This document shows, piece by piece, positions 2,924 through 33,959 of a DNA stretch of 45,704 nucleotides. Source of the DNA: Chloroflexaceae bacterium (lineage in GTDB: Bacteria; Chloroflexota; Chloroflexia; Chloroflexales; Chloroflexaceae); assembly GCA_012033195.1 (NCBI GenBank), contig JAAUSQ010000010.1, positions 1 through 45,704 of the forward strand. The letters are read 5' to 3'. Under the pieces are notes generated by a model that did no database searches, was not told the DNA's origin, and worked only from the letters and a program-made list of their open reading frames with translations. Positions within the stretch are counted from its first letter, which is position 1; every line of letters starts with the position of its first letter. Both the position numbers and the translations under genes were made by a program.

Positions 2924-4177
2924 GTGGCATGCTTTCGCTACTTTCTGATAAGCTTGCTTGCTGGGGGGCTGCTGGCGGCGTGTGCCCCACCAGCAAACGA
3001 TATCGTTGAGCCTATTGCCCGCACGACTGCCACGGCAACCGCCACCGTCCCGCCGCCGCCTGCTACGGCAACCGCCCCCCCGACGGTGACGGCTCCGCAC
3101 CCAACCGCGCCGCCTGCGTCTGCGGTGGTGCTGCCTGCTCCGCTCTACTATCTGGCGGAGGGCGATATCTGGCGGATGGAACAGGATGGCAGCACGGTGC
3201 TGCGGATCACCGACGAGCTATCAAATGTGATTGAGTTTGATATCTCACCGCTCGATGGACGGCTCGCCTACACCCTGGGCACCAACGACCATACCGCACA
3301 AACGCTGGTGCTGGCGGCGGCAGATGGCAGCGCCCCCACGCCGCAGACACGCAGCGAAACACGCCTGGGCAGTCCGCGCTGGTCGCCCAATGGCACCCTC
3401 CTGGCCTACGATACCAGTGGGCGGAGCGATTTGAGCGATACGGGCGGCACCTATATTTTGGATACCCGGACACCTGGCGCACTGCCCGAACTGTTGCAGC
3501 CCAACGCACCTATTCCCGACCCGACCAACCCGACGGGGGGCGAGTCGTATGAATTTTATGCGCCGCTGGCGTGGTCGCCCGCCGGGGATGCCTTGCTCTT
3601 GCAGGCGAGCTTCGGGCTTGCTGTGCGTCCCCTGACTGGCGAACTGATGAACCTGCTGGCCCCTCCCGGTGCTGATATGCCACGCCTGCCCTGCTGCGAT
3701 GCCACCTGGAGCCAGGATGGGCAATCGGTGTATGTGGCGAGCGATGGCGATCTGGTGCTGAGTACTATCACGCCGGGATTGTGGCAAGCCGATCGTATCA
3801 GTGGCCAATCGGCAACCCTGGTTATGCGACGGCAGGCCGGGTCATTTGCACCGACAGCGGCACCCTACGAAACACCCGGTGGTCGGTTGCTCATGTTTGC
3901 GACCGTGACCCGTCGGGTGCCGATACCGGGGATGGGGCCGCCGCCGCTGCTGATGAGCACGTATGATAGAAGCCGTGATCCTGCCTTCACCTACCTCCGC
4001 ACCGATGAATATGTGCCCGATGAGATTCTCTGGGCGCAGGATGGGAACGGTGCAGTACTGCGGGTGTTCGACAATACCTCACCGATGCGGTCGCTGGTAT
4101 GGTTGCCCGCTGATGGCAGTGCAGCCGTACCACTTGAGCGCGACGGCAGCAACCTGCATTGGGGTATGGTACGGTGA
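2924..4177 (+). CDS. Lipoprotein with WD40-like/TolB-type beta-propeller
   Basis: The GTG start lies 3 nt after the preceding stop with GGGAGAG upstream, so it is probably co-transcribed with the hydrolase lipoprotein. The signal peptide ends in a lipobox (LLAAC, Cys near residue 19), followed by a Thr/Ala/Pro linker to ~70. The remaining ~350 residues show repeated PD40/TolB-like blades: YYLAEGDIWRMEQDG, SPRWSPNGTLLAYDT, LAWSPAGDALLLQ, ATWSQDGQSVYVASDGD, EILWAQDGNGAVLRV. It should be a lipid-anchored extracellular propeller. Ligand and partner are unknown; the neighbour suggests a shared extracytoplasmic role. Confidence 0.8.
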   Translation: MACFRYFLISLLAGGLLAACAPPANDIVEPIARTTATATATVPPPPATATAPPTVTAPHPTAPPASAVVLPAPLYYLAEGDIWRMEQDGSTVLRITDELSNVIEFDISPLDGRLAYTLGTNDHTAQTLVLAAADGSAPTPQTRSETRLGSPRWSPNGTLLAYDTSGRSDLSDTGGTYILDTRTPGALPELLQPNAPIPDPTNPTGGESYEFYAPLAWSPAGDALLLQASFGLAVRPLTGELMNLLAPPGADMPRLPCCDATWSQDGQSVYVASDGDLVLSTITPGLWQADRISGQSATLVMRRQAGSFAPTAAPYETPGGRLLMFATVTRRVPIPGMGPPPLLMSTYDRSRDPAFTYLRTDEYVPDEILWAQDGNGAVLRVFDNTSPMRSLVWLPADGSAAVPLERDGSNLHWGMVR

Positions 4178-4215
4178 AGAAACACGGCCTATTCACCAGG
4201 TTTTCACCAGACGAC

Positions 4216-4245
4216 GTGACAACGCCCTTGACGACACGGTATAAT
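4216..4245 (+). promoter_or_regulatory. Sigma-70-type promoter before alpha/beta hydrolase
   Basis: GTGACA (4216-4221), an 18-nt spacer and a perfect TATAAT (4240-4245) lie 33 nt upstream of the ATG at 4279. A transcription start near 4252 would give a leader of about 27 nt. Confidence 0.55.
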
Positions 4246-4278
4246 GGGCATGCAATTCTTTCTATGTATTGAAACAGC

Positions 4279-5166
4279 ATGACAGAATATAGAGAAACAA
4301 CGCCAGAAATGGCAGTAACCAGCACGCCTCCGCCCGCGCCGCCGGAGGTGCCCGAACTCACGATTATCGCTGTGCATGGCAATGGCGGCAGCAAAACCCG
4401 CTTTCAACGGGCGCAGCCGCATATGCCACATTCTATTCGCTTTCGGGCCGTGACATTACCAGGGTTTGCCGATATGCCCCGCGACCCGGCACTGCAATCG
4501 TTGTATGACTATGCCAACTATCTGCGGCAGATCATTCTTGAAGAAACGCCGCCCATTGTACTGCTTGGGCACGGCGTTGGTGCGTCGATTACGCTGGAAT
4601 ACATCCAGCGCTTTGCCAGCACCGTCAATGGCATTGTGCTGCATTCACCCGTAGGGGTGCGAGCGAAACAGCGCTTCTTTGCACGGCTGATGCAGATACC
4701 AGTCGCGCGTAACATCGCGCAGCATCTGTTTGCAGCGCCGTATATGCGCCCTATTCTGTCCCGGTTGCTCTTTTCGCATCCGGTGCCGAATGAATACCTG
4801 GAGCGCTTCTTTCACGATTATCGCTCGTGTGATGTGTTCGCGCAGATGTTTGAATTGATCACAACCGCGTGGTTCGACGCATTGCAGCCGCGCCAGATTC
4901 CAGCAGTGCTGCTGTGGGGCGAACGCGAACAGCGCCTGAGCATCGAGCAGATGCATGTGTATCAGCATTTGTTGCCCAACAATATTACACGGATTGTGTC
5001 GAATTGGGATCATTTCCCGATGGTGGAGCAACCCGAACAGTATGCCCGCGAGGTGGTACGGCTGGCACGCATGATGCTTGAGAAGGCAGCAGCGCCAACC
5101 AACGGTACGGCTGCCATTGAAGTGGTCACTGGACGAGGAAATTCGTTTGAGATACGTATTGACTGA
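4279..5166 (+). CDS. Alpha/beta hydrolase-fold protein lacking nucleophile Ser
   Basis: The protein has 295 residues and an alpha/beta-hydrolase layout: HGNGGSKTRF (oxyanion-hole region, ~33), the strand LLGHGVGAS (95-103), a helical cap, LLWGEREQ (acid region) and NWDHFPMVEQPE (His). The nucleophile elbow normally reads GxSxG. Here residue 99 is Gly (codon GGC at 4573-4575, one base from AGC Ser), and the usual acid position of the WGexD motif is Glu. The fold is clear but the enzyme may be inactive or use other chemistry. It has its own promoter. Its 3' end overlaps the next gene by 20 nt. Substrate unknown. Confidence 0.8.
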   Translation: MTEYRETTPEMAVTSTPPPAPPEVPELTIIAVHGNGGSKTRFQRAQPHMPHSIRFRAVTLPGFADMPRDPALQSLYDYANYLRQIILEETPPIVLLGHGVGASITLEYIQRFASTVNGIVLHSPVGVRAKQRFFARLMQIPVARNIAQHLFAAPYMRPILSRLLFSHPVPNEYLERFFHDYRSCDVFAQMFELITTAWFDALQPRQIPAVLLWGEREQRLSIEQMHVYQHLLPNNITRIVSNWDHFPMVEQPEQYAREVVRLARMMLEKAAAPTNGTAAIEVVTGRGNSFEIRID

Positions 5167-5590: not shown

Positions 5591-6876
5591 TTAGCGTCCG
5601 GTGCCATTTTCTGAAGGATCCCGCCTGGTGCAGCCAACCAGTTTGAGGAAGATTGGTACAAGCTGTGGATCGAATTGGATGCCCGCCTGCTCGGTGATGT
5701 ACTGACAGGCGGCTTCTTTTGTCCATGCCGTGCGGTAGGGGCGGTCGGAACGGAGCGCATCCCAAACATCGACCAGCGCAAAGATGCGTGCCGAGAGCGG
5801 AATATGTTCACCGCGCAGGCCATATGGGTAACCTTTGCCGTTCCAGTGTTCGTGGTGATACAGGGGGATGTCCATCGCCGGGCGCAGATACTCAATTCCC
5901 TGAAGCCATTCGGAGGCATAGTGCGGGTGCGCCGCCATAATCTTCCACTCTTCCTCGGTAAGCCCTCCGTTCTTCCGCAGAATAGCATCGGGTACGCCAA
6001 GCTTGCCAATATCGTGCAGCAGCGCCCCCGCCGAATGTGCAGTACCTCTTCTGCCGACATCCCAAGGGTAGTGGCCATCTGTTCGGCCAGTTCTACCACC
6101 CGCCACGAATGCCCGCCGGTTTCGTGGTCGCGCAGTTCGACTGCCCGTGCCCAACCTACCAACGTCGAGTCGTAGGCGGCGGCAATCTGGCGCAGCAAGG
6201 CTTCGCGTTCCTGAATATACTGCTGCTGGATCTGTTCAAACTCAACATTGGCAGTCACATCGATTGTTGCAACCATATCGGCCTTACGCCCCATAAAGGT
6301 TATGGTGTGCGAAACAATCTGCACCCAGAACACATGACCCTGTTTGTTGCAGTGTCGCCAGCGCCCCGAATCAAACAGAATATCGCGGCCCTGCTGCATC
6401 TCTACTATCCAGTATGAGCGTTCGTTAGCAAGTTGCTGATGCAGCAATGTGACATCTTCGGGCGGGCGTATATCAGTAATCTGCATCTGCAAAAACTCTT
6501 CGCGAGTGTAGCCATACTTTGTGACGGCAGCGTGATTCACCTCTAGAAAGGCGAGCGTTTCCAGATCGTACAGCCACATCGGGATCGGATGTTTCTGGAA
6601 GAGCAACTCGAACTGGTGCTGCCGTTCCTGGCGTTCCTGATCTACCTGATACTCACGCCAGAAAATAATTCCGCTAATCAGTGCGAGGAACAGGCTAGTC
6701 GCCAGAATGCGGACAGACTCCTGGCGCTGATGTATCAGCAGGATCTGTTCCCAGGGCAGTGGCAACGATGCAATGAGTTCTTCTGAAGATATAATCCAGA
6801 TCGTCGCAAAAACCAGATAAGCCAGGGGTATCAGTCCAATAAAGTACGTTGATCGCAAATGCTTCATAGCCATCAT
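5591..6876 (-). CDS. PAS-HD-GYP cyclic-di-GMP phosphodiesterase (frameshifted)
   Basis: The start reads MMAMKHLRST. Two TM segments (~10-30 and ~58-75) are followed by a PAS domain (~85-205, PIPMWLYDLETLAFLEVN) and an HD-GYP domain. The HD motif (LLHDIGKLGVPD) and the HHEHWNGKGYPYGL motif are both intact, so it should hydrolyse cyclic di-GMP at the inner membrane. The frame breaks at a C5 run (6025-6029, plus strand). Restoring one base gives LHIRRGALLHDIGK and a protein of ~428 aa. GATACT lies 5 nt before the first ATG and no strong Shine-Dalgarno is visible. It is convergent with the PPOX gene and divergent from gdhA. Confidence 0.85.
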
Positions 6877-9110: not shown

Positions 9111-10629
9111 CTATACATTCGGGTTGCTGTTCGGGTCGTAGGGCGGCGGGCTGGCAGGCGTGGCAATGGTGCTACTGCCGCCACCGATGCTGCCCATAAT
9201 CGCACTGCGTGCCGTTTCGGAGCCAAAGCCCCACGCCAGCAGCGCCGCGTAGTCGCTCCATGGATTGGCCCCAAATATATCGTTGGACATATACAACTCG
9301 TTGAAGCCGGCAATTGCCAGCAGGATGATGACCACGGCATAGCTCGCATAAGCGAACAGGTGCAACCGCAACCCGGCCCGCCCCGACTCGGTCTTGAGGT
9401 CGATAGGGCCAGTGATTGGTGGCAGCGGCAGCGCAACCGGGAGCGCCATGCTCACATCGCTGGAGACACCAAGCGTAAACGAAATGCCCTCATTGCCAAT
9501 CGGCGACTTGGCACGCTGCTGCTCGATAACGGCACGCATATCGCTGGCGGTCGTGCTCAGTTCTTGCGAAAGCTGTTCGTATGCTTGGACATCGCCGGGG
9601 GTCAGGTTTGCGAGGTGCTGCCGCAACGCATCAATACGGCTGCGCCACTTCTGAAATTCCTCGGTGCTCTCGATGCGCTCGTTCAGGCTCTGTGCTTCCT
9701 GGAGCCTGGATTTCAGGGTGAGATAGCGCTCGATATTGATGCGGATGCCATCCAGTTGCTTGCGGAGTTCTTCGGGGTTGCTCAAGTCGGGCGCACGGTT
9801 GGCAGCATCTTCCAGTTCACGGGTCATCGTCTGTCCAAAGCGCCCTGATACGTCGGGTCGGCGGCATCGTTCAGGCGTTGCAGCAACGTGTCTTTATAAT
9901 CAAACTGGGCCTGCCAGTCGTCGCGCTGCCGATACCAACGGGCCAGCAGTGCTTCTGCTGCCTCGATAGACTGGCGGGTAGCGGCAAGGTCGTTTGAGTC
10001 AAGCGCAGTATCGGCATCGATCAGGCTGGTAGTGATGCGGCGGCGAAATGGTGTGCCGCCCGTTTCGGAACGCAGTTGCGACCGGATGCGCCCGATGCGT
10101 ACCAGCAACTCGTCGCGGGGCGTGCCTGTGCCCGATACACCGACAGAATAATACCGAAGGCAATCCCCAGGATGAGTATCAGCAGCGGTAGCAAGGGGCT
10201 GTGCTTGATACGTACCAGCATTGGAACAACTAGCGTGCCCTGGCTATGCCGTATCAGCAGGTCGCCGGTGAACTCGCCACTCCGCACCCCCTGAAAATTG
10301 AATGCCACCGATACGCGTGCCAGCGCACCCGTAGGCACTTCGGCGGGTGTCTCGGTTGTGCTTTCGAGCAGGGTGGCGGTCAAGCGTTGTGCCGGGATTG
10401 CCACGCCGCCATCAATGCGTATCAGGTCGGACGCAACAACCTCGATAATATCGAGCGGCTGTGATGTCTGGATGAGCACGGTACGAACGGGTTGTTCGCC
10501 ATTCATTGCAAAAATGGTAAGCTGGGTTGGCGAAGCAGTGATAAATTCCTGGGCACGCGCCGGAGCGCTGGCATGCAGCAGGCTGGCAAGCAGTAGCACA
10601 CGGCCACACAGGAGCACCAGTCGTTTCAT
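9111..10629 (-). CDS. Secreted/two-TM coiled-coil protein (two frameshifts)
   Basis: The start is MKRLVLLCGR (ATG at 10629) with GGAG upstream. Order: a signal peptide cleaved near ARAQE, a ~115-residue beta-rich extracytoplasmic domain, a TM helix (LLPLLILILGIAFGIIL), a long helical coiled-coil region (~165-390), and a second TM helix (~435-455) near a Gly/Ser/Pro tail. The frame breaks at a G4 run (10117-10120) and at CCC 9843-9845. One added base each gives QARPRDELLVRIG and YQGRFGQTMTREL and a single ~506-aa protein. At the second site the two frames meet as ATGA, so two coupled genes remain possible. I do not recognise the family; a structural or scaffolding role at the membrane is inferred only from shape. 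Confidence 0.6.
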
Positions 10630-15705: not shown

Positions 15706-15857
15706 GCTAACCAGCACCCCGGTATCAACCAACAAGATGGGATACAATGGTGTCTCCTCCCTGGTCTGTTGCTTAACCTCTTCGGACACGTTGCCGAGTG
15801 TCGCGGCGGCAGGCTTCACAAATGCACACAACCACGATCAGAAAGGATAACGGCTTC

Positions 15858-16823
15858 ATGTTTACGAGCATCGCCGATGTACGTACTGCCCTCTGTGAGC
15901 AGCAATATATTCCTTCAGATGAGATTTCGACCGCCATGTTCCTGGCAGATCGTCTGGGTAAACCGTTGCTGGCAGAAGGCCCCGCTGGTGTTGGGAAAAC
16001 CGAACTGGCGAAGGTCTGGGCCGGAGCCACTGGACGGGAACTGATTCGCTTGCAGTGCTACGAAGGGCTGGATGAAACAAAAGCCCTGTATGAATGGGAG
16101 TATTCCAAGCAGTTGCTCTATACCCAACTGCTGCGCGACAAGCTCGGCAACCTGCTGAGCGATGCCGCCACCCTGCACGATGCCGCCGACCGACTGGCTG
16201 CCGAAGAGGATGTTTTTTTCTCGGAGCGCTTTCTGCTGCGCCGCCCGCTGCTCAAGGCCATCACCAGCGATAATCCGACTGTGCTGCTGATTGACGAGAT
16301 CGACCGGGCCGATGCCGAGTTTGAAGCGTTTCTGCTGGAAGTGCTCAGCGATTTTCAGGTGAGCGTGCCCGAACTCGGCACGCTGGTTGCCAAGCATCGC
16401 CCGATGGTGATCCTGACCAGCAACAACACCCGCGAACTGAGCGAAGCCCTCAAGCGGCGCTGTCTGTATATTTATGTGGATTATCCTAGCCTGGATGCGG
16501 AATTGCAGATTGTGCAACTGAAGGTGCCCGAACTGGGAGGCAAGCTCGCAGCGCAGGCGGTTGAGTTTGTGCAGCAACTCCGTAACCTCGACCTGAAGAA
16601 GCACCCTAGTGTCAGCGAGACGATTGACTGGGCCAGGGCGCTGGTGCAACTGAATGCACGCTCGCTCGACAAAGAGACGCTTGAGAACACGCTCAGTGTG
16701 CTGCTCAAGTATGAGAGCGACCTGCAACGCGCCCGCCGTGCGGTCAATCAGGCGGCTTCGGAGACACCGCCGCGCCGCCGCACCAAGGGCCAGTTGCCAA
16801 CCGACTACGAGAACTACCGCTAG
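15858..16823 (+). CDS. MoxR-family AAA+ ATPase
   Basis: The start at ATG 15858 (MFTSIADVRT) has GAAAGGA upstream; an earlier ATG at 15798 adds poor sequence. The Walker A is GPAGVGKTE (41-49), Walker B LLIDEIDR (143-150), sensor I TSNNTRELS, and the arginine-finger region ALKRRCLY. MoxR ATPases are chaperone-like machines paired with von Willebrand factor A proteins to mature metalloenzymes or complexes. The VWA partner follows 72 nt downstream, so this is a typical MoxR-VWA pair. The client is not identifiable here; no CO dehydrogenase genes are present. Confidence 0.9.
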   Translation: MFTSIADVRTALCEQQYIPSDEISTAMFLADRLGKPLLAEGPAGVGKTELAKVWAGATGRELIRLQCYEGLDETKALYEWEYSKQLLYTQLLRDKLGNLLSDAATLHDAADRLAAEEDVFFSERFLLRRPLLKAITSDNPTVLLIDEIDRADAEFEAFLLEVLSDFQVSVPELGTLVAKHRPMVILTSNNTRELSEALKRRCLYIYVDYPSLDAELQIVQLKVPELGGKLAAQAVEFVQQLRNLDLKKHPSVSETIDWARALVQLNARSLDKETLENTLSVLLKYESDLQRARRAVNQAASETPPRRRTKGQLPTDYENYR

Positions 16824-16895
16824 ACCTGTGCCGCCCCTGCGCTGCTGGTGGGGTCGGCACCATCCTTGTAGCACCAGAATGCGAGAGCAACGTGT

Positions 16896-18320
16896 ATGGA
16901 TGAACGAGTAGTCAATTTTATTGCCGCCCTCCGCGCCAGTGGCGTGCGTGTGAGCGTGGCCGAAAGCGCCGACGCGCTGCGTGCCATGGAGAGTGCTGGC
17001 ATTAGCGATAGAGATCTGTTTCGGGCGGCACTTCAGGCAACCCTGATTAAAGACGTGCGTAGTATTCCTGAATTTGAGCGGCTGTTCCCGCTGTACTTCA
17101 ACATCAACCCGCCGCCGCCCTTGCAGCAGATGGGGTCGGGGCAGGGCACGGGTCGCCCGCTGACACCCGAAGAACAGCAGCAGTTGCAACAGATGCTTGA
17201 GCAGATGCTGCGGAATATGTCGCCCGAACAACTGCGCGAACTCTTCCAATCGATGATGAGCGGGCAGCAGATGACCAATGAGCAACTGCGCGAGATGTTG
17301 CCAGCCATGCCTTCACCGTTCGGGCGCTATATGACCCAGATGCGGATGATGCAGCAGGCGATGCGCGACATGGAGTTTGACCGGATGGAGCAACTGCTCC
17401 AGGAACTGTTGCAGCAGCTTCGTGAGGCGGGTATGAGCGAAGAGGCGCTGGCCGAGATTGAGGCGACCGCCCGCGCCAATCAGGAAGCGCTGGCCGAGCA
17501 GTTGCAGCAGCAGATGCAAGAACAGATGCTTGGCGCAATGCAGCAGGAAAGCCAGAACCCGCGCCCGTCCAGCCAGCTTATCGACCAGCCGTTCGAGTAC
17601 TTCGACCGCCGCAACATGGACGATATGCGGGCTGTGATCAATCGGCTGGCGGCGCAGTTACGGTCGCGGGCGGCGCTCCGGCAGCGGCGCGGCAAAACAG
17701 GCACACTGGATGCCAAGCGCACGATTCGCAGCAATATGCGGTATGGGGGCGTGCCGATTACGGTACACTATCGCCGCCGCCATCTCAAGCCCAAACTGGT
17801 CGTCTTAATCGACCGCAGCGAGTCGACGCGCTCGGTGACAACGTTCCTGCTGATGCTGATTTACGCCCTGCAAGACCAGGTGAGCCGTACACGCAGTTTT
17901 GCGTTTATTGATGACCTGACCGACATCAGCACCTACTTTGCCGAGGCACGCCCAGAGCAGGCGATTGAGAACATTATGAACACGGTGCGGGCCACGCGCT
18001 CGTATAGCACCGACCTAGGCACCAGCCTGGAAACGCTGGTGCGCGACTACCTCGGCGCGGTCGACCGCCGCACGACCGTGATTGTGTTGGGGGATGCACG
18101 CAACAACTACAACGACCCGAACCTGCCAGCCTTCGAAACGCTGAGCCGCCGCGCCCGCCGCATCATCTGGTTTAATCCGGAGCCGCCGCATATGTGGGGC
18201 CAGTTCGACCCCGGCTCACTCACCAGCGATATGCTGGAATATGCGCCCTTCTGTCAGGCGGTGCATTATGTGAGCAACCCGCGTCAGCTTATGGCCGCCG
18301 TCGATACGTTGTTTGCATAA
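16896..18320 (+). CDS. VWA domain protein, CoxE-like partner of MoxR
   Basis: This 474-aa protein has an N-terminal helical CoxE-like domain (to ~70), a long Gln/Met/Glu-rich low-complexity helical region (~75-220), and a C-terminal VWA domain. The MIDAS is complete: DRSES (306-310), a Thr in the STDLGTS loop, and the Asp in LGDARNN. The family works with MoxR AAA+ ATPases. The central Gln/Met-rich segment is much longer than in ordinary CoxE proteins, probably forming an extended coiled coil. No signal peptide or TM helix is visible, so it should be cytosolic. Confidence 0.88.
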   Translation: MDERVVNFIAALRASGVRVSVAESADALRAMESAGISDRDLFRAALQATLIKDVRSIPEFERLFPLYFNINPPPPLQQMGSGQGTGRPLTPEEQQQLQQMLEQMLRNMSPEQLRELFQSMMSGQQMTNEQLREMLPAMPSPFGRYMTQMRMMQQAMRDMEFDRMEQLLQELLQQLREAGMSEEALAEIEATARANQEALAEQLQQQMQEQMLGAMQQESQNPRPSSQLIDQPFEYFDRRNMDDMRAVINRLAAQLRSRAALRQRRGKTGTLDAKRTIRSNMRYGGVPITVHYRRRHLKPKLVVLIDRSESTRSVTTFLLMLIYALQDQVSRTRSFAFIDDLTDISTYFAEARPEQAIENIMNTVRATRSYSTDLGTSLETLVRDYLGAVDRRTTVIVLGDARNNYNDPNLPAFETLSRRARRIIWFNPEPPHMWGQFDPGSLTSDMLEYAPFCQAVHYVSNPRQLMAAVDTLFA

Positions 18321-18404: not shown

Positions 18405-20099
18405 GTGTCAGCAACCGCGACCACACCAACCACATCAACTGGAATAGCCGAGCGTTGGCTGTCGGGTACGCACGGCAAAACACGCTACTGGGCCGCCGAA
18501 CACGCCGACGGTGTACCGCTTGTGCTGCTCCACGGTTACGGTGGCCTGATTGAGCACTGGCAACGGCTGATGCCGCTCCTGGCAGAGCAGCACCCGGTTT
18601 ATGCACTCGACTTACACAACTTCGGTTATTCGTCTGTGCTCACCGTTACGCCGAGCAAAGACATCTGGGCCGCACAGGTGGCCCACCTGATCCGTGCGGT
18701 GGTGCAGCAACCTGCGGTTATCATCGGGCATTCGCTTGGCGGTGCCATTGCCGCACAACTGGCCCACAACGAGCCGTCGCTGGTGCGGGCACTGGTGCTG
18801 GTCAATAGCGTGGGCAACCCGCCCGACCATGCCCCGTCGCTGGTTGAGCGGGCACTGTTCGGCGTCTTGCAGGTGCCCGGTCTCGGTGAGTTGCTGGCTC
18901 GCACGATGACCACCACGGCGGGCGTGCGCTATAATCTGGAACTGAGCTATCACGACAAATCGCAGATTACGCCCGAAATGGTCGAAACATTCGCGGGGCC
19001 GTTGCGCCGCCCCAATGGGCCAGATGCATACCTGGCCGTCACCCGTACCTTCTCGTCGTTGCCGCTTGATCTGGATGAGGGGTGCATTACACAGCCAATT
19101 ATGATTGTGTGGGGCGAGCAAGACCACGCCATGCCCGCAACGCTGGCAACCCGCCTGAAAGAGCGCTTTTTCCCCGATGCCGACATTCGCTACATTCCAG
19201 AGAGCGGGCATTGCTGCTTCGATGAGCGCCCCGCAGCGTTCACCGAGATTGTGCTGCCCTGGATTGAGCGGCAGTACGCTGTAACCCCTATGCCGCCCAT
19301 CACACTCGCAGCTATCTATCGCACCCTTGCGGCGCACTTTGGCCCGCCGCACGAGTGGTGGCCGATCTTCGGCGACGACCCGGCCTTTGAGCAGATACTC
19401 GGTGCGGTACTGGTGCAGCAGACCCGCTGGGAAGCCGTCGAGCAAGCTATTCTGCGGCTCCAGCAGGCCGGGTTGCTGGCCCCTGCTGCGCTGGCCCGCG
19501 CCGATGCCGAGCAGGTCGCGCTGCTGCTGCGTCCGGTAGCGTTCTACCGCCAGAAGGCCCCCGGCAGTATTGCCATCAGCGCCTACCTCTGCGAACGCTA
19601 CGGCGGCGATGCCCATACATTGCTGGCGCAGCAGCCAACCGCCGACCTGCGCCGCGAATTGCTGGCACTGCCGCGTATCGGCAACGAGACTGCCGACGTG
19701 ATCCTGCTGTACGCTGGCGGGCACGCTGTGTTTGTGGTGGATGACTACACCCGCCGCTTGATGGGCCGCGTCAATCCTGCGCCTGCCTTCAACTGGGAAA
19801 AAGCAAAATACGACTATGTGCGCGACCATATTGAGCGTGAGCTTGCGCCACTGGTGGAGGCTGGGTCGGCTGCCATCACGCTCTACGCCGATTACCACGC
19901 CCTGATTAACGAGCAGTGTGTGCGCTACTGCACTGCCACCCGTCCGCGCTGCGATGGCCCACCGGCCCGCCGCGTCTACAGCTTGCAGGAAGGGCGCAAC
20001 TCGTACCTCGACCGACACGACGGGTGCCCGCTGCGCGATGTGTGCGCGTGGTATCAGGCACGGGGCGCAGAAGCGCACAGCGCACAGCGCAAAATATAG
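18405..20099 (+). CDS. Alpha/beta hydrolase fused to endonuclease III-like glycosylase
   Basis: The start is GTG 18405 with AAAAGGA upstream. Residues ~20-290 are an alpha/beta hydrolase with an intact triad: GHSLGG (Ser 110), WGEQDH (Asp 240) and SGHCC (His 269). Residues ~296-564 are an HhH-GPD DNA glycosylase: LVQQTRWEAVEQA, the helix-hairpin-helix LPRIGNETAD (422-431) and catalytic Asp in VVDDYTRR (446). The Lys of bifunctional endonuclease III is Glu here (GNETA), as in monofunctional MagIII-like enzymes. Cys 515, 519, 526, 551 and 557 include CPLRDVC and could hold an iron-sulfur cluster with an insertion. The join is an in-frame ATG at 19290 without a Shine-Dalgarno. A real fusion, or two genes joined by an indel error (common here), are both possible. 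Confidence 0.75.
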   Translation: MSATATTPTTSTGIAERWLSGTHGKTRYWAAEHADGVPLVLLHGYGGLIEHWQRLMPLLAEQHPVYALDLHNFGYSSVLTVTPSKDIWAAQVAHLIRAVVQQPAVIIGHSLGGAIAAQLAHNEPSLVRALVLVNSVGNPPDHAPSLVERALFGVLQVPGLGELLARTMTTTAGVRYNLELSYHDKSQITPEMVETFAGPLRRPNGPDAYLAVTRTFSSLPLDLDEGCITQPIMIVWGEQDHAMPATLATRLKERFFPDADIRYIPESGHCCFDERPAAFTEIVLPWIERQYAVTPMPPITLAAIYRTLAAHFGPPHEWWPIFGDDPAFEQILGAVLVQQTRWEAVEQAILRLQQAGLLAPAALARADAEQVALLLRPVAFYRQKAPGSIAISAYLCERYGGDAHTLLAQQPTADLRRELLALPRIGNETADVILLYAGGHAVFVVDDYTRRLMGRVNPAPAFNWEKAKYDYVRDHIERELAPLVEAGSAAITLYADYHALINEQCVRYCTATRPRCDGPPARRVYSLQEGRNSYLDRHDGCPLRDVCAWYQARGAEAHSAQRKI

Positions 20100-23278: not shown

Positions 23279-23548
23279 ATGGTACGTGTATATGTGGCTG
23301 AGCATTGCCTCGGTTCGCAACGGGCACAACGATTGGTAGCGCAAGTTCGGTTATGCTATCCTGATGCAGCACTGGAAATTGTAGATATAACGATACCGGG
23401 CACGGTGATACCGCCTGAGATTTTTGCAACACCGATCTATACCTGGAACGATCACATTATCTTTCTGGGCAACCCGAGCGAAACTGCCCTGCTGGATTAC
23501 ATAAGGAGAGATTATGAGTACAACGGCCATCGACACCAGCGCAACTGA
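23279..23548 (+). CDS. Small thioredoxin-fold protein, CxxS type
   Basis: An 89-aa protein starting MVRVYVAEHC with GAGGG 7 nt upstream. A thioredoxin-like pattern is seen: beta strand, C10-L-G-S13 in place of CxxC, and a cis-Pro-like ATPIYTW near 60-66. A single Cys favours a glutaredoxin-like monothiol or non-redox role. Its end overlaps the start of the crp-like gene by 35 nt; the last ~10 residues look unlike the family and the natural stop might be slightly earlier if an indel error is present. It is co-transcribed with the regulator. Confidence 0.65.
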   Translation: MVRVYVAEHCLGSQRAQRLVAQVRLCYPDAALEIVDITIPGTVIPPEIFATPIYTWNDHIIFLGNPSETALLDYIRRDYEYNGHRHQRN

Positions 23549-24247
23549 AGAACCGTCTTTTAATAAAACGGCCTACCTGCAAACGATTGATATCTTCCAG
23601 GATTTGGAACAGAGCGAGGTGGATGCGTTGGGCAAACGCACGCCGATGCAGCGGGTCAGGCCGGGGACGGTTTTTTATTCGCCGGAGCAATCTGCCGAAG
23701 TGCTCTTTATTTTAAAAGAAGGTCAGGTGCGGTTGTATCACCTCTCGCCGGAAGGCAAAGAGTTGACCACCGCAATCATTGACCCTGGTACTATTTTTGG
23801 CGAGATGGCGCTGCTTGGTCAGAAGCTCCACGAGAGCTATGCGGTGGCGCTATCGCCCTGCCTGCTCTGCCTGATGAGCCGGGAAGACGTGAAGCATGTG
23901 CTGTTGAGCGATCCGCGTGTTGCCGCTCGCATTGCCGAAATCCTCGGCAATCGCCTGATTGATGCACAGCGCCGTCTCTCCGATTTTGCCTTCAAGAATA
24001 TTCCGCAACGGCTGGCAAGCGTGCTGCTCGAACATGCCCGCCCTCCCCGGCGGCGGTTGTTCCGCAGCCCCGAAAGCGAGCTTGAGTGCCCTTCACCCAC
24101 GAGGCAATGGGGGCGCTGGTTGGCACGCACCGCGAGACCATCACCAAGATATTAAACGATCTGCAACATCAGGGTATTATCGAACTGCGGCGGGGTCGGG
24201 TGCTGATCCTCGACCCGGAACGGTTGCGCGCCTGTAGTCTGTCGTAA
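23514..24247 (+). CDS. Crp/Fnr-family transcription regulator (frameshifted)
   Basis: AAGGAGAG precedes ATG 23514. A cyclic-nucleotide-binding-fold domain (~25-145, with PGTIFGEMALLGQ) is followed by a long dimerisation helix. The frame breaks at CCC 24089-24091. One added base gives ELECPFTHEAMGALVGTHRE, a winged helix-turn-helix recognition motif, then ITKILNDLQHQGIIEL and a wing, for ~244 aa ending at TAA 24247. No FNR-type Cys cluster is seen at the N-terminus, so it is probably not an oxygen-sensing iron-sulfur FNR. Effector unknown. It is translated with the preceding thioredoxin-like gene. Confidence 0.87.
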
Positions 24248-24255
24248 GCGGGGCG

Positions 24256-25304
24256 CTACACAATCTCAATCCCTGGTGCGGCAATAACCGCGCCGATACG
24301 CCAGATCGGGAGCGCTTCGGCGGCGAAGGCGGCCTCAAGCTGTGCGGCGGCTTCGGGTGCGACGGCAAACAGCAACCCGCCCGATGTCTGCGGGTCGAAT
24401 AACAACAGCTTGCGGCCTTCGTCTATTGCCGCTCGATAGCGCACATAGCCATTCTGTTCAACAAAGTCTTTGTTGCGGAACAGCCCGCCCGGTGCAATGC
24501 CGCCCTGGGCATAGTCGAGCGCACCGGGCAGCAACGGCAGTGCCGCTGCCGCAATGCGTAGCCCAACGCCACTATTACGGGCAATTTCGGCACCGTGCCC
24601 CAGCAACCCATAGCCGGTAATATCGGTGGCGCTGTGGAAGCTGCCGTGTGGGAGTGTCTGGGCAAGCTCAGCGGCGCGTTTGTTCAGCCGCAGCATGCTC
24701 TGCGTGGATGCGTCGATATGGGCCGCCTGTACCTGCCCACGCTTGAGCGCCGTACTGATGATGCCCGTGCCAAGCGGCTTGGTGAGCAGCAGCACATCGC
24801 CAGGGCGGGCGTTGGCCTTGGGTGTGATGCGGTCGGGGTGGATCAGACCGGTAACACACAGCCCATACTTCGGCTCTTGATCGACCACCGTATGCCCGCC
24901 GACAATCACCGCGCCCGCCTCGGCGACTTTGTCGGCTCCCCCTGCAAAATCGCCGTGATGATCTCAGGCGGCAGGTCGGCAGGAAAGCCCGCTACCGCCA
25001 GCGCCGTGATAGGTCGCCCGCCCATAGCATACACATCGCTGAGCGCATTGGCGGCGGCAATTGCGCCGTAGGTGTACGGGTCGTCCACGATAGGCGCAAA
25101 AAAGTCAACCGTCTGCACTAGGGCCGTCTCGTCGTTGAGACGGTACACGGCAGCATCATCGCGCACCCCCAGACCAATGATCAGGTCGGGATGGGTGGCG
25201 AATGTAATACCGGCGAGCACATCCGTGAGAGCACCCGGCCCCAGTTTAGATGCTCAACCTGCGCCGGTTGCCATATTGGTCAGGCGGATCTGTTCATGTG
25301 ACAT
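24256..25304 (-). CDS. selD: Selenophosphate synthetase, probable selenoprotein (frameshifted)
   Basis: SelD makes selenophosphate from selenide and ATP. The start [16 protein letters not shown] leads to a TGA at codon 17 (25254-25256), then [15 protein letters not shown]. The TGA is exactly at the catalytic Cys17/Sec position of SelD (family GAGC/U-x-x-K), so I read it as selenocysteine. A second frame break lies in a C5 run (24938-24942); one added base gives [20 protein letters not shown], the normal sequence. The repaired protein is 349 aa, the usual length. Other motifs: [23 protein letters not shown] and the C-terminal DPQTSGGLL. No other selenium genes (selA, selB, selC, mnmH) are in the window. 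TGGTATATT lies 3 nt before the ATG. Confidence 0.88.
25214..25237 (-). promoter_or_regulatory. Candidate bacterial SECIS hairpin in selD mRNA
   Basis: Starting 17 nt after the UGA, CGGGUGC (25237-25231) can pair with GUGCUCG (25220-25214) over 7 bp including three G-U pairs, leaving a 10-nt loop UCUCACGGAU. Position and size fit bacterial SECIS elements that recruit SelB, but the pairing was done by hand and the G-U content makes it weak. Confidence 0.4.
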
Positions 25305-26046: not shown

Positions 26047-27550
26047 CTATGCGGCACCGTTTTCGTGCAACCCACACAACCGCAGCCACCGCCGACCATC
26101 ACGGGCAACAAAACTATCGGCATCATCTGGCCCCCAACTGCCAGGTTGGTAGATGGTTGGCTTCAGGCTGTCGTTGGTTTCCCATGCCTTGATGATCGGG
26201 TCCATCAATTCCCAGGCCCGTTCAATCGCATCGCCGCGAATGAACAGCGTGGCATCACCAATGATAGCATCCATCAGCAGGCGCTCGTAGGCTTCCGGAA
26301 TGGCGGTGAACTCGCAAATATCGTTATAATGGAAGGTCATATCGACCGAGCGTGTTTCCGACACGGTACCGGGCAGTTTGGCCTCGAAGCGGAAGTGCAT
26401 ACCCTCGTCGGGCTGAATGCACAGGCTCAGCACATCGGGATTGACCGACTTACCGGGTGGCATCGGGAAGATGGTATGCGGCGGCATCCGGAACTGCACC
26501 AGTACTTCTGATACCTTGGTTGCCAGCGCCTTGCCCGACCGCAGATAGAACGGCACGCCGTGCCAGCGCCAATTATCAATATACAACCGCATCGCTGCAT
26601 AGGTCGGGGTGCGCGAACCCTCTGCAACCCGTTCGGCTTGCTGATAGCCCTGATACTGCCCGAAAACAACATTATCAAGCAGGTCGCCGTCGGTGATGGG
26701 GCGAATGGACGACAATACCTTGACCGTCTCGTTGCGGACGGCATCGGCGGAGAACGAAAACGGCGGCTCCATTGCAATCAGCGCCAGGAGTTGCAGCAGG
26801 TGGTTCTGGAACATATCACGCACAATGCCCGCGCTATCGTAGAAGCCTGCCCGACTGCCTACATCGACCTGCTCGGCAACGGTGATCTGCACATTGTCGA
26901 TGTAGTTGCGATTCCAGACGTTCTCAAACACGGTGTTGCTGAAGCGAAAGAAGGTAATATTCTGCGCCGTCTCTTTGCCAAGGTAGTGGTCAATACGGTA
27001 CACCTGATGTTCGCGGAAGTGCGAGAGCACAATGCTATTCAGCTCACGGGCCGACTCAAGGTCGTGGCCGAAGGGCTTCTCGATGATAATGCGGCGCTTG
27101 GCATCGTTGTCTTTGCTTTCTTTGGCCATCCCCACTGCCGAGAGCATTTCAACCACAGTGACATAATACTCAGGTGCGGTGGAAAGATAATACAGCCGAT
27201 GGACGGGTTGCTCTGCTTCCAGTTCACGCAGAAAGGCATGCAATCCTTCGTAGTCGGTGCCTTCGTTCAGGTCGCCCTGATAATAAAACAGGCGCGGCGC
27301 GAATTCTTCCCAGCGGGCTGCGTCGAACGTCTCGCGGGAATGTTTTCCCCCCTTCGCGCATGCGCTCCCGAAACTCTTTGTGGCTGTAGGGTCGCCGTGC
27401 AAAGCCCACGATGTGTGAGTCCATATTCAAGCGCTCTTTAATGTACAGGTTGTACAGCGCCGGAACAAGCTTGCGTTGCGTCAGGTCGCCCGACGCACCA
27501 AAGATAACAATGGTTGTTGGGGGTGATGTGCTGGCTGTGGGTGTGGTCAT
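26047..27550 (-). CDS. zwf: Glucose-6-phosphate 1-dehydrogenase (frameshifted)
   Basis: First enzyme of the oxidative pentose phosphate pathway. The NADP-binding motif [13 protein letters not shown] is near residue 17 and the substrate signature RIDHYLGKE is intact, with EKPFGHD upstream of it. The frame breaks in a G6 run (27347-27352, plus strand C6). Removing one base gives [18 protein letters not shown] and a 500-aa protein of normal length. It is the one clear insertion-type error besides E1beta. GAGGATA lies before the ATG, and gnd ends 38 nt upstream on the same strand, so zwf is the second gene of a gnd-zwf operon. Confidence 0.93.
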
Positions 27551-27588
27551 TGCTCGTATATCCTCGTTTGCTGATCTAAAAACCTGTT

Positions 27589-28497
27589 TTACAGATCTGT
27601 CTTTTTGACGACGTGCCCGCCAAACTGTCCACGCAGTGCCGAGAGCAGCTTATCGCTGAATGGTTCCGGGTCGCGGGAACGGAAGCGGCGCTGCAACGAC
27701 AGCGTGATGACTGGAATAGACACATTCAGGTCAATCGACTCCATCACCGTCCAGCGGCCTCGCCGGAGTCGGGCACATACGCGGCGATGCCTTCGAGTTC
27801 GGGGTTTGCGGCAAGCGCGGCGGCGGTCAGGTCGAGCAGCCACGAGCGCACCACACTGCCATAGCGCCAGATCTCGGCAATCTGCGCGAGGTCGAGGCCA
27901 AATTCGGTCTTGTGCTTCATCAGGTCGAAGCCTTCGGCATAGGCCTGCATCAGACCATACTCGATACCATTGTGGACCATCTTCACAAAATGACCGGAGC
28001 CAGTCGGCCCGACGTGTCCCCAGCCTTGATCGGGGGCGGGGGCCAGCGTCTCAAAGATGGGCGTGAGGCGCTCGACGGCGCAGTCTCGCCACCGACCATC
28101 ATGCTATAGCCTTCTTTCAATCCCCAGATACCGCCACTGGTGCCCACATCAACCATAAAGATACCGCGCTCTTTCAGGTGCTGACCCTGTCGAACAGTAT
28201 CGTTGTAGTTGCTATTGCCGCCATCTATCACCGTGTCACCCTCGGCAAGCAGTTCGCCGAGTTGCATAATCGTCTGCTCGGTTGGATCGCCAGCAGGCAC
28301 CATTACCCACACGGCACGCGGGCGCTCAGCTTGCTCACCATATCCGCCAGCGACTCGGCGGGGATTGCGCCGGCGGCGGCGGCGCTCTGCACAGCTTCGG
28401 CGTTGCGGTCGTACACGACCAATGTATGCCCCCCCTGAAGCAGACGGGTTGTCATATTGGCACCCATTTTGCCCAGGCCAATCATGCCCAGTTCCAT
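27589..28497 (-). CDS. gnd: 6-phosphogluconate dehydrogenase, short form (three frameshifts)
   Basis: Oxidatively decarboxylates 6-phosphogluconate to ribulose 5-phosphate. The start [15 protein letters not shown] (ATG 28497) has AAAGGAG upstream. Conserved motifs are IDGGNSNY and [18 protein letters not shown], and the signature [10 protein letters not shown]. Frame breaks at GGG 28320-28322, GG 28077-28078 and CC 27758-27759. One base at each restores [27 protein letters not shown] and [13 protein letters not shown]. The repaired length is ~303 aa, fitting the short GndA-like NAD/NADP class rather than the 470-aa form. First gene of the gnd-zwf-MOSC operon. Confidence 0.9.
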
Positions 28498-30527: not shown

Positions 30528-31586
30528 ATGAGCCAGTCAATGGAGACACCCTCGACCAATCACACAAGCGAGCAGCCAACCCTTCCGCGCCATCTTCAGC
30601 TTGGCCTATCGGATGAGCAGGTGATTGCCGCGCTGTGCGGGATGCAACGCGCCCGCGAAGTGGACGACCGGCTGTGGGTACTCAGTCGGCAGGGCAAGGC
30701 CCATTTTGTGATTACCTCGGCAGGCCACGAGGCAATTCAGTTTGGTTGTGGCTGGGCTATCCGCGTTGGGCACGATTATGTAGTGCCCTACTACCGCGAT
30801 ATGGCGCTGGCGCTGGCACTGGGGCAGACTTCGCTCGATTTGCTGCTGCACGCGATGGGCAAGCCCACCGATCCGGCCAGCGGCGGGCGGCAGATGTTCG
30901 GGCATTTTAGCAGTCGCAAGCTGCGGCTCGTCAGCGGCTCAAGTTCGGTGGGCAGCCATATTGTGCATGCCGTCGGGCTGGCGCTGGCCTTTCGCATCAC
31001 AGGCGAGACCGATATTGCATCGATTACCTTCTTTGGGGAGGGTGCAACGTCGGAGGGCGCGTGGCACGAGGGCATCAGCATTGCGGGCGTGCATCAGCTT
31101 CCGGTGGTGTTTGTCTGCGAAAACAACTCCTATGCGATATCGGTACCGCTTAAGAAAGAAGTGCCCGTGCCCGATGTGGCGACCAAAGCAGCGGGCTATG
31201 GCATGCCTGGTGTGATTGTTGATGGTACCGATATCTTCGCTGTGTATGAAACCGTGCGTGCTGCGATGAAACGCGCCCGCTCCGGGGGTGGCCCCACGCT
31301 GGTTGAGTGTAAGACCCACCGCCTGCGCCCGCATTCCAATTCTGACGACCATACCAAATATCGCCCTGCTGATGAGATTGCCGCGATGCAGGAGCACGAC
31401 CCGATCCAGCGTTTGCTGGCCTATGTGGTGGAACACAACCTGATGACACAGGAGGAGTGGGACGCGGCCCGCCAGTCTATTCGGCAGGAGGTGAACGAGG
31501 CGACCACCACCGCCGACCGGGTGCCCGACCCGCCGCTGGAATCGCTGTTTGCGCATCTGTATGGGACGGAGGAGCACGATGCCTGA
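30528..31586 (+). CDS. 2-oxoacid dehydrogenase E1 alpha subunit
   Basis: The 352-aa alpha subunit of a thiamine-diphosphate-dependent dehydrogenase, closer to branched-chain 2-oxoacid dehydrogenase (BkdA) than to pyruvate dehydrogenase by its VVPYYRDMALALALG and TKYR segments. The thiamine-diphosphate motif is FGEGATSEGAWHEG...ENNSYAIS. The phosphorylation-loop region HRLRPHSNSDDHTKYR is typical. TTGGAGG precedes the ATG. It overlaps the E1beta gene by 8 nt and starts a three-gene E1alpha-E1beta-E2 operon. No E3 gene is adjacent. Confidence 0.92.
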   Translation: MSQSMETPSTNHTSEQPTLPRHLQLGLSDEQVIAALCGMQRAREVDDRLWVLSRQGKAHFVITSAGHEAIQFGCGWAIRVGHDYVVPYYRDMALALALGQTSLDLLLHAMGKPTDPASGGRQMFGHFSSRKLRLVSGSSSVGSHIVHAVGLALAFRITGETDIASITFFGEGATSEGAWHEGISIAGVHQLPVVFVCENNSYAISVPLKKEVPVPDVATKAAGYGMPGVIVDGTDIFAVYETVRAAMKRARSGGGPTLVECKTHRLRPHSNSDDHTKYRPADEIAAMQEHDPIQRLLAYVVEHNLMTQEEWDAARQSIRQEVNEATTTADRVPDPPLESLFAHLYGTEEHDA

Positions 31587-32563
31587 ACTGACCTTCGTTG
31601 ATGCGATCCGCAGCGCCCTGCGCGACGAGATGGCCGCCGATGCGCGGGTATTTGTGCTGGGGCAGGATGTCGGCGTGAAGGGCGGCGTGTTCCTGGCAAC
31701 CGATGGCTTGCAGGCCAGCTATGGTGAGTACCGCGTGATTGATATGCCGATTGCTGAGGTTGGCATTGTGGGTGCGGCAATCGGCGCATCGCTGCACGGT
31801 CTGCGTCCGGTTGCCGAAATCCAGTTTGCCGATTATATTCAGCCTGCTATTGACCAGATTATCAATGAGGCGGCCAAGTTTCGCTACCGCACCGCTGGCG
31901 ATTGGTCGTGCCCGCTTGTGGTGCGTGCACCGTTTGGCTCTGGCATCCACGGCGCACTCTACCACTCGCAAAGCACCGAGGCGCTGTTTACCAGCACCCC
32001 TGGCCTGAAGGTGGTTATCCCCGCCACGCCTTATGATGCCAAGGGACTCTTGATTGCCGCCATCCGCGACCCCGACCCGGTGGTCTTTTTTGAGCACAAG
32101 CAACTCTACCGCACGCAGCGCGGCGAGGTGCCCGATGGCAGCTACATCGTGCCACTGGGCAGTGCTGCTGTGCGCCGCACCGGACGCGATATGACAGTGT
32201 TGAGCTATGGCCTGATGCTGCACCATAGCCTGACGGCTGCCGAACAGGTGGCCGAAGAGGGTATCCGTGTGGAGGTGATTGATCTGCGAACGCTCTACCC
32301 ACTTGATAAAGAAACGATTCTTGAATCGGTGCGAAAGACGGGCAAGGCGATGATTGTGCACGAGGACAACCTGACGGGTGGCATCGGCGGCGAGATCAGC
32401 GCCATGATCACGGAACACGCCTTTGAATATCTGGATGGCCCGGTGCGGCGGGTGGCTTCGCCCGAATGTGCCCGCGACGGCCTTCAACGAGGCGCTTGAA
32501 GCGTATTATATGCTCAATCCGCAGAAGATAGCCGATGCTATCCGCAACTTGGCGGCCTACTGA
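31579..32563 (+). CDS. 2-oxoacid dehydrogenase E1 beta subunit (frameshifted)
   Basis: The start MPELTFVDAIR (ATG 31579, GGAGGAG upstream) overlaps the E1alpha stop. Motifs include LGQDVGVKGGVF, the transketolase-type core VRAPFGSGIHGALYHSQS and EDNLTGGIGGEI. The frame breaks at CCC 32461-32463. Removing one base gives VASPNVPATAFNEALEAYY and an end at TGA 32563, for 327 aa, the normal length. With E1alpha it forms the heterotetramer that decarboxylates the 2-oxoacid and acylates the lipoyl group of E2. Confidence 0.92.
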
Positions 32564-32592
32564 GTAGTGCTCGAACAAAGGATGCGTGTCTT

Positions 32593-33959
32593 ATGCCAAC
32601 TGATATGCGAATGCCCCAACTCAGCGAGTCGATGCAGGAGGCAACGATTACCCGCTGGCTCAAGCGCGAGGGCGATACCCTCGTGGAGTATGAGCCGATG
32701 GTGGAGGTGGAGACCGATAAGGTAACAACCGATATTCCCTCGCCAGCAGCGGGTACTATTCTGAAAATCTATGTGGGCGATGGCGAGGTGATCGAAGCCG
32801 GAGCGCTGCTGGTATCCATCGGGCATCCTGACGAAGTCGCCGCACCCGCGCCCGAACTACCTGCCGCCACGCCGCCCGTGTTGCCGCCTGTCTCACCGGT
32901 TGCTGCAAAGGTCGCCGCCGATCTGGGGGTGGATCTGACGAAGGTGCGCGGCACGGCGACCGGCGGGCGCATCACCAAGCAGGATGTGCTGGCCTATGCC
33001 GAGAACCACAATGCGGCGACCCCTGCCATCCTCACCGAGCGCCTCAATCCCGCGAGCAATGTGCCATTAAACCCGGCGGGTGTCATTACACCAGCGGTGT
33101 CGCGGCTGGCAGCAGCCTATAACATCGATCTGCGCCACATCCAGGGCAGCGGCGCGGCGGGCGGGTTACCCGCAACGATGTGCTGGCGTATATTGAGGCG
33201 GGCGCACCGGTGCCGGTTGTTGCCGTAACTGGCACCACCATGCCACTGCCGACGGTGCTGCCTGCCGCACCCGATGACATAGATGACCTGGTGGTGCCGC
33301 TCTCGGCGATGCGGCGCACGATTGCCGAGCATATGGTCCGCAGTGTGCAAACCAGCCCGCACGTCACCACGGTGATGGAGGTAGACCTTGCGGCGGTGGG
33401 TGCCCACCGTGCGGCACATCGCAACGAGTTTGCACAGTGGGGCGTACGGCTGACATATACAGCCTATATGGTGGCGGCAACGGCAGCGGCGCTGCTCAAG
33501 CATCCAGCGGTGAACGCAAGCTGGCACGAGAACGGTATCCGGCTGCATCGGGTGATCAATATTGGGGTGGCGACCGCGCTGGGTGAGGCAGGGCTGATTG
33601 TGCCAGTTATCAAAGATGCCGACGAGAAATCGCTAACGGGGCTTGCCCGTGCGATCAACGACCTGAGTCTGCGGGCACGCGCCGGACAGCTTGCCGCCGA
33701 AGAGGTGCGCGGTGGCACGTTTACTATCACTAACCACGGCACATCTGGCTCGCTGATGGCAACGCCAATTATTCATCAGCCACAGTGTGCCATTCTGGGC
33801 ATGGGCGCAATTGAGCAGCGCGTGAAGGTGGTGCAGGGCATGCTGGCAATTCGTCCAATGGCCTACCTGGGCCTGACCTTCGACCATCGCATGCTCGACG
33901 GGGCGGGAGCCGATGGGTTCCTGGCGAGTGTCAAGCAGCATCTGGAGGCGTGGCAGTAA
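32593..33959 (+). CDS. Dihydrolipoamide acyltransferase E2, two PSBDs (frameshifted)
   Basis: Order: a lipoyl domain (1-80, lipoyl Lys 43 in VETDKVTT), an Ala/Pro linker, a peripheral-subunit-binding domain (~101-137, GGRITKQDVLAYAE), a second one (~166-202, TPAVSRLAAAYNIDL...VTRNDVLAYIE), and the acyltransferase core with NHGTSGS and the active-site DHRMLDG. Having two binding domains is unusual; one is standard. The frame breaks inside the second domain near GGG 33163-33165. One added G gives GSGAAGGVTRNDVLAY and ~455 aa. Third gene of the operon; it depends on lipA and lipB for activation. Confidence 0.9.

Follow-up and report, generated by a model that had tools for sequence, protein, structure and literature searches.

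The joined open frame at 18405–20099 (forward strand) of the window, the whole 45.7-kb stretch of DNA analysed here, is very probably not a conserved two-domain enzyme but an ancestral pair of neighbouring genes, encoding a hydrolase and a DNA glycosylase, which was joined in one assembly by a missing hydrolase stop. The firmer finding is an insertion in the iron-sulfur loop of the glycosylase. As a fusion the frame has little importance and the loop is worth more; the new aspect rests on the loop and not on the fusion.

On the forward strand, no stop interrupts the frame between 18345 and its end at 20097–20099 (584 codons), and two candidate starts, ATG 18348 and GTG 18405, are available to it. 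Judged from the sequence context, the latter is the likely start, because a purine-rich stretch lies just upstream and the position matches the starts of the orthologues. In the 583-aa form, Pfam recognized Abhydrolase_1 at residues 57–295 (8.1e-29) and HhH-GPD at residues 352–480 (6.1e-11), with ATG 19290 in the same frame as the hydrolase. The frame, the Pfam matches and the individual residues confirmed the description given in the earlier note, namely a single open frame linking a hydrolase with an intact triad to an HhH-GPD domain with a catalytic Asp and cysteines. The following features were distinguished.

18405–19289, forward strand: alpha/beta hydrolase region with a likely GTG start (ATG 18348 possible), from Pfam, the triad and orthologues.
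19260–19292, forward strand: the join, with LPWIER in frame into ATG 19290, from the reading of the frame and the stops in the other frames.
19290–20099, forward strand: MagIII/MpgII-like HhH-GPD DNA glycosylase, present in full and beginning at its usual Met, from Pfam, conserved residues and a predicted model.
19929–20045, forward strand: iron-sulfur loop C-x6-C-x24-C-x5-C, from the cysteine positions and comparison of loci.

The fused two-domain architecture was not recovered in any relative. The family survey comprised 41 genomes, including that of the window, and 40 of these gave a match at E ≤ 1e-45; a joint match over all 583 residues was found in one of the 41, the window's own genome, which is the single representative of its genus in the survey. 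The phylum survey covered 400 genomes, and the glycosylase was matched at E ≤ 1e-12 in 87 of them; 47 of the 57 matches from beyond the order were retrieved, leaving 10 out. None of the 77 glycosylase loci that were read (80 loci fetched, 77 containing the glycosylase) contained the fusion. The hydrolase lay directly upstream in two of these 77 loci, both from the sister genus g15, and a hydrolase-like frame was present on the opposite strand in three; more distant hydrolases would be missed in this comparison, because many loci have flanks of no more than about 2 kb. Conserved fusion was rejected on the basis of the family survey, the phylum survey and the 77 loci.

Both genomes of sister genus g15 (G014 and G025) carry the hydrolase and glycosylase orthologues as adjacent genes in the same order as in the window (L039, JAAUTZ010000136.1; L040, CALCJV010000048.1), the hydrolase orthologue lying at 4090–4995, but in two different frames that overlap by ATGA instead of the single frame seen here. 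Two adjacent genes in close relatives is the arrangement that the earlier note had named as refuting the two-domain protein, and both relatives that have the genes together show it. The window hydrolase and the two sister-genus hydrolases form one clade with a support of 99/100, from which we conclude that the two genes were already neighbours before the join arose. Just two of the 30 other Chloroflexales glycosylase loci examined have the pair side by side. The gene upstream of the glycosylase varies among genera and includes, as read by eye, CBS-domain types and glucan-phosphorylase-like ends, and the hydrolase relatives in the family survey sit away from the glycosylase.

Several long glycosylase frames (e.g. 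1020, 697, 462 and 380 aa) resembled other fusions, but none contained a hydrolase match; on re-reading the frames of 1020 and 697 aa, the glycosylase's own frames were 301 and 271 aa. No relative was found in IMG/VR, and the plasmid search returned only glycosylase matches below 60% identity (25 records). An alpha/beta hydrolase–HhH-GPD fusion was likewise not found in searches of the open-access literature. When the joined protein was aligned together with stand-alone hydrolases and glycosylases, the hydrolase rows came out split.

The assembly consists of 430 contigs and is 86.9% complete, and the frame model indicated many abrupt frame changes in the window. The earlier suspicion of many indel errors proved justified: seven frameshifts were supported by homology, about one per 6–7 kb, and six of the seven shift the frame as a missing base would. 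They affect the following genes.

5639–6849, reverse strand: HD-domain sensor, frameshifted, from homology of pieces in different frames.
23508–24220, forward strand: Crp-type regulator, frameshifted, from homology of pieces in different frames.
24262–25253, reverse strand: AIRS-type gene, frameshifted, an intact single frame in relatives.
27338–28497, reverse strand: gnd (two shifts) and zwf, encoding 6-phosphogluconate and glucose-6-phosphate dehydrogenase, with pieces in several frames.
32500–33956, forward strand: E2 acyltransferase, frameshifted, an intact single frame in relatives.

For gnd, zwf, the HD-domain sensor and the Crp-type regulator, the support consists of pieces in different frames that match consecutive parts of a profile or successive domains of the enzyme. 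Further switches indicated by the frame model, at 9841, 12941, 27751 and 45133, lacked confirmation by homology and were left out of the count. Two further joins, at 5128 and 31584, were rejected as frameshifts, as each separates two distinct genes (by Pfam at 5128; by eye from the translations at 31584). The gnd/zwf region on the reverse strand is the densest frameshift cluster of the window.

At the join itself, the last conserved residues of the hydrolase, LPWIER, are in frame with ATG 19290 and form the tail, as in family members, and the glycosylase keeps its usual Met and N-terminus at 19290. Each of the other frames contains a stop here, at 19265–19267 and 19282–19284. The frame with the stop at 19265 is not closed again until 19388, and a shift in the missing-base direction downstream of 19267 would for that reason not produce a tidy gene end by itself. 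Between 19260 and 19284 the sequence lacks any homopolymer of at least three bases, and the frame model showed no frame switch between approximately 13.2 and 23.4 kb. The caution expressed earlier, that the join at ATG 19290 could be an artefact, is sound, although unproven.

The ancestral state was presumably a generic alpha/beta hydrolase gene followed immediately by the gene of a MagIII/MpgII-type DNA glycosylase that stands alone; the sister genus shows the pair with an ATGA overlap and probably with coupled translation. The hydrolase stop would then have gone missing through an indel, for which an assembly error appears marginally less probable than a real and recent event. We judge an artefact and a real join to be nearly even, with the latter slightly ahead, because supported frameshifts occur about once per 6–7 kb overall, while none is apparent nearby and the join lacks a homopolymer. 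An even chance is given to a real, recent and local fusion, in which the stop was lost in the lineage of the window and a protein of approximately 60 kDa with two independent domains would be produced, ATG 19290 perhaps still serving as an internal start that yields free glycosylase. The frame that is open and clean on both sides and the hydrolase tail that remains in frame up to the join agree with this, and the tight ancestral spacing makes fusion in one step easy; the absence of the fusion from any second genome in the family survey or the 77 loci, the adjacency of the pair in so few of the other Chloroflexales loci and the near-absence of a linker argue against it. The clean 13.2–23.4 kb region, the in-frame LPWIER tail and the lack of a homopolymer favour a real join, and this species may accordingly make a real two-domain protein. 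If the join is real, two independently folding enzymes share one chain with almost no linker between them.

Somewhat short of an even chance is left for a pure assembly artefact, by which the cell has two separate genes, like the sister genus, and the hydrolase stop is masked by an indel of the assembly. The seven supported frameshifts with their prevailing direction, the fragmented and incomplete assembly, the two-gene state in both sister-genus genomes and the normal Met retained by the glycosylase all speak for this, whereas the stretch free of frame switches and the join lacking a homopolymer speak against it, and after 19267 the commoner type of error yields no nearby stop unless there is a further change. 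A functional hydrolase–glycosylase repair enzyme, whose hydrolase would process lesions or products for the glycosylase, is highly improbable. The only point in its favour is that both active sites are intact, but the glycosylase is widespread without a hydrolase neighbour, the upstream genes vary among genera (by eye) and the hydrolase relatives sit away from the glycosylase; no link of the hydrolase to DNA repair was found in the loci read. The apparent two-in-one enzyme probably does not represent a functional design, because the genes are separate in relatives and joined only in one error-prone assembly. Where an assembly is rich in indels, an architecture should be claimed from joined frames only after a second genome has shown it. 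The composite reading, in which a real young fusion, formed by recent loss of the stop between two tightly coupled genes, coincides with a Chloroflexales branch whose iron-sulfur site was rebuilt by about 22 inserted residues that split the cluster loop and, in two sister families, carry three further cysteines and perhaps a second metal site, we consider unlikely as a whole.

Whatever caused the join, the glycosylase most likely functions in the same way as its relatives. Without the hydrolase part, from Met 19290 onwards, it scored 44.9 bits against PF00730 (HhH-GPD; cut-off 26.2). The catalytic Asp151 (19740–19742) is invariant in an alignment of 72 rows, and Glu133 at the HhH position (19686–19688) is at least 90% conserved therein. 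When a profile built from these rows was compared with solved structures, MagIII (1pu6) ranked first (6e-38), followed by Endonuclease III (EndoIII). A confident structural model predicted for the glycosylase without the hydrolase (mean pLDDT 94.3, pTM 0.91, first helix at residues 6–17) matches the structures of both; with MagIII it has the fold in common (TM 0.59–0.60 by query length, 28% identity), as well as the Glu at the HhH position and the catalytic Asp. Against the NCBIfam model PRK13913, however, it reached 70.6 bits with a cut-off of 192, and we accordingly label it MagIII/MpgII-like and not as a PRK13913 equivalog. MpgII has four C-terminal cysteines, as does the window glycosylase, and its second and third cysteines are two residues apart, in contrast to 24 residues here. 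MagIII, unlike the window glycosylase, presumably lacks an iron-sulfur cluster, and MpgII is for this reason the closer in kind. Both domain names proposed in the earlier note hold, the MagIII-like one by the top profile match 1pu6, with MpgII-like being nearer in kind.

EndoIII (Nth) shares the fold and the iron-sulfur cysteines with the window glycosylase, but has a catalytic Lys where the latter has a Glu, and its model TIGR01083 gave 53.4 bits, compared with a threshold of 211.7. A Glu at the HhH position, as found here, is present in MpgII of Thermotoga maritima, and is described as a mark common to Tma-MpgII, Hpy-MagIII and Mja-UDG (PMC11754123). Because Glu133 replaces the Lys of EndoIII, Asp151 is invariant and the Glu is common to MpgII and MagIII, the sequence points to a monofunctional alkylbase glycosylase of the MagIII/MpgII kind, a reading that covers both the putative substrate and the putative mechanism. 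The HhH domain would bind DNA and flip out a damaged, probably alkylated purine, which the catalytic Asp would remove with no lyase step, since the Glu occupies the place of the EndoIII Lys. The iron-sulfur loop would help to hold the DNA. Two further HhH-GPD genes are present in the same genome, on contigs C396 and C37, and the one on C396, with a frame of 276 aa, may be its Nth.

The cysteines of the iron-sulfur cluster begin at 19929, 19950, 20025 and 20043 and correspond to Cys214, 221, 246 and 252 of the glycosylase, all four being invariant in the 72-row alignment. The loop departs from the canonical C-x6-C-x2-C-x5-C in that 24 residues instead of two separate the second cysteine (19950) from the third (20025), an insertion of about 22 residues. 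The gap measures 24–25 residues in every one of the 29 Chloroflexales loci in which it is readable (of 30 loci, one being truncated at the edge of its contig; including L043–L057, L061, L062 and L149–L161), compared with two residues in all 47 other Chloroflexota loci. In the window's family, 22 loci lack cysteine in the insertion, which typically reads GPPARRVYS... there; in seven loci from two other families of the order (L057, L149–L154) it contains three extra cysteines (C-x3-C-x2-C), which possibly hold a second metal site. No description of the insertion was found in searches of the open-access literature. Splitting of the cluster loop with all four ligands kept bears on the role of the cluster, as a structural clamp or as a redox sensor, for which the Chloroflexales offer matched natural variants, without extra cysteines in one family and with three in two others.

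The hydrolase has its triad at Ser 18732–18734, Asp 19122–19124 and His 19209–19211, and these residues are identical in all 16 aligned family hydrolases, that of the window included. With 103.6 bits (Pfam cut-off 25.8), Abhydrolase_1 assigns it to the fold, and it would act on an ester-type substrate. All NCBIfam models shown for named hydrolases scored below their cut-offs, and we therefore keep it as a generic hydrolase. Many genomes of the family have one or two copies of such a hydrolase, and a paralogue with 45% identity lies elsewhere in the same genome (contig C80, 7672–8532). Directly upstream of the joined frame, at 15798–18320 on the forward strand, are a MoxR-type ATPase gene (named by eye) and a VWA/CoxE-like gene.
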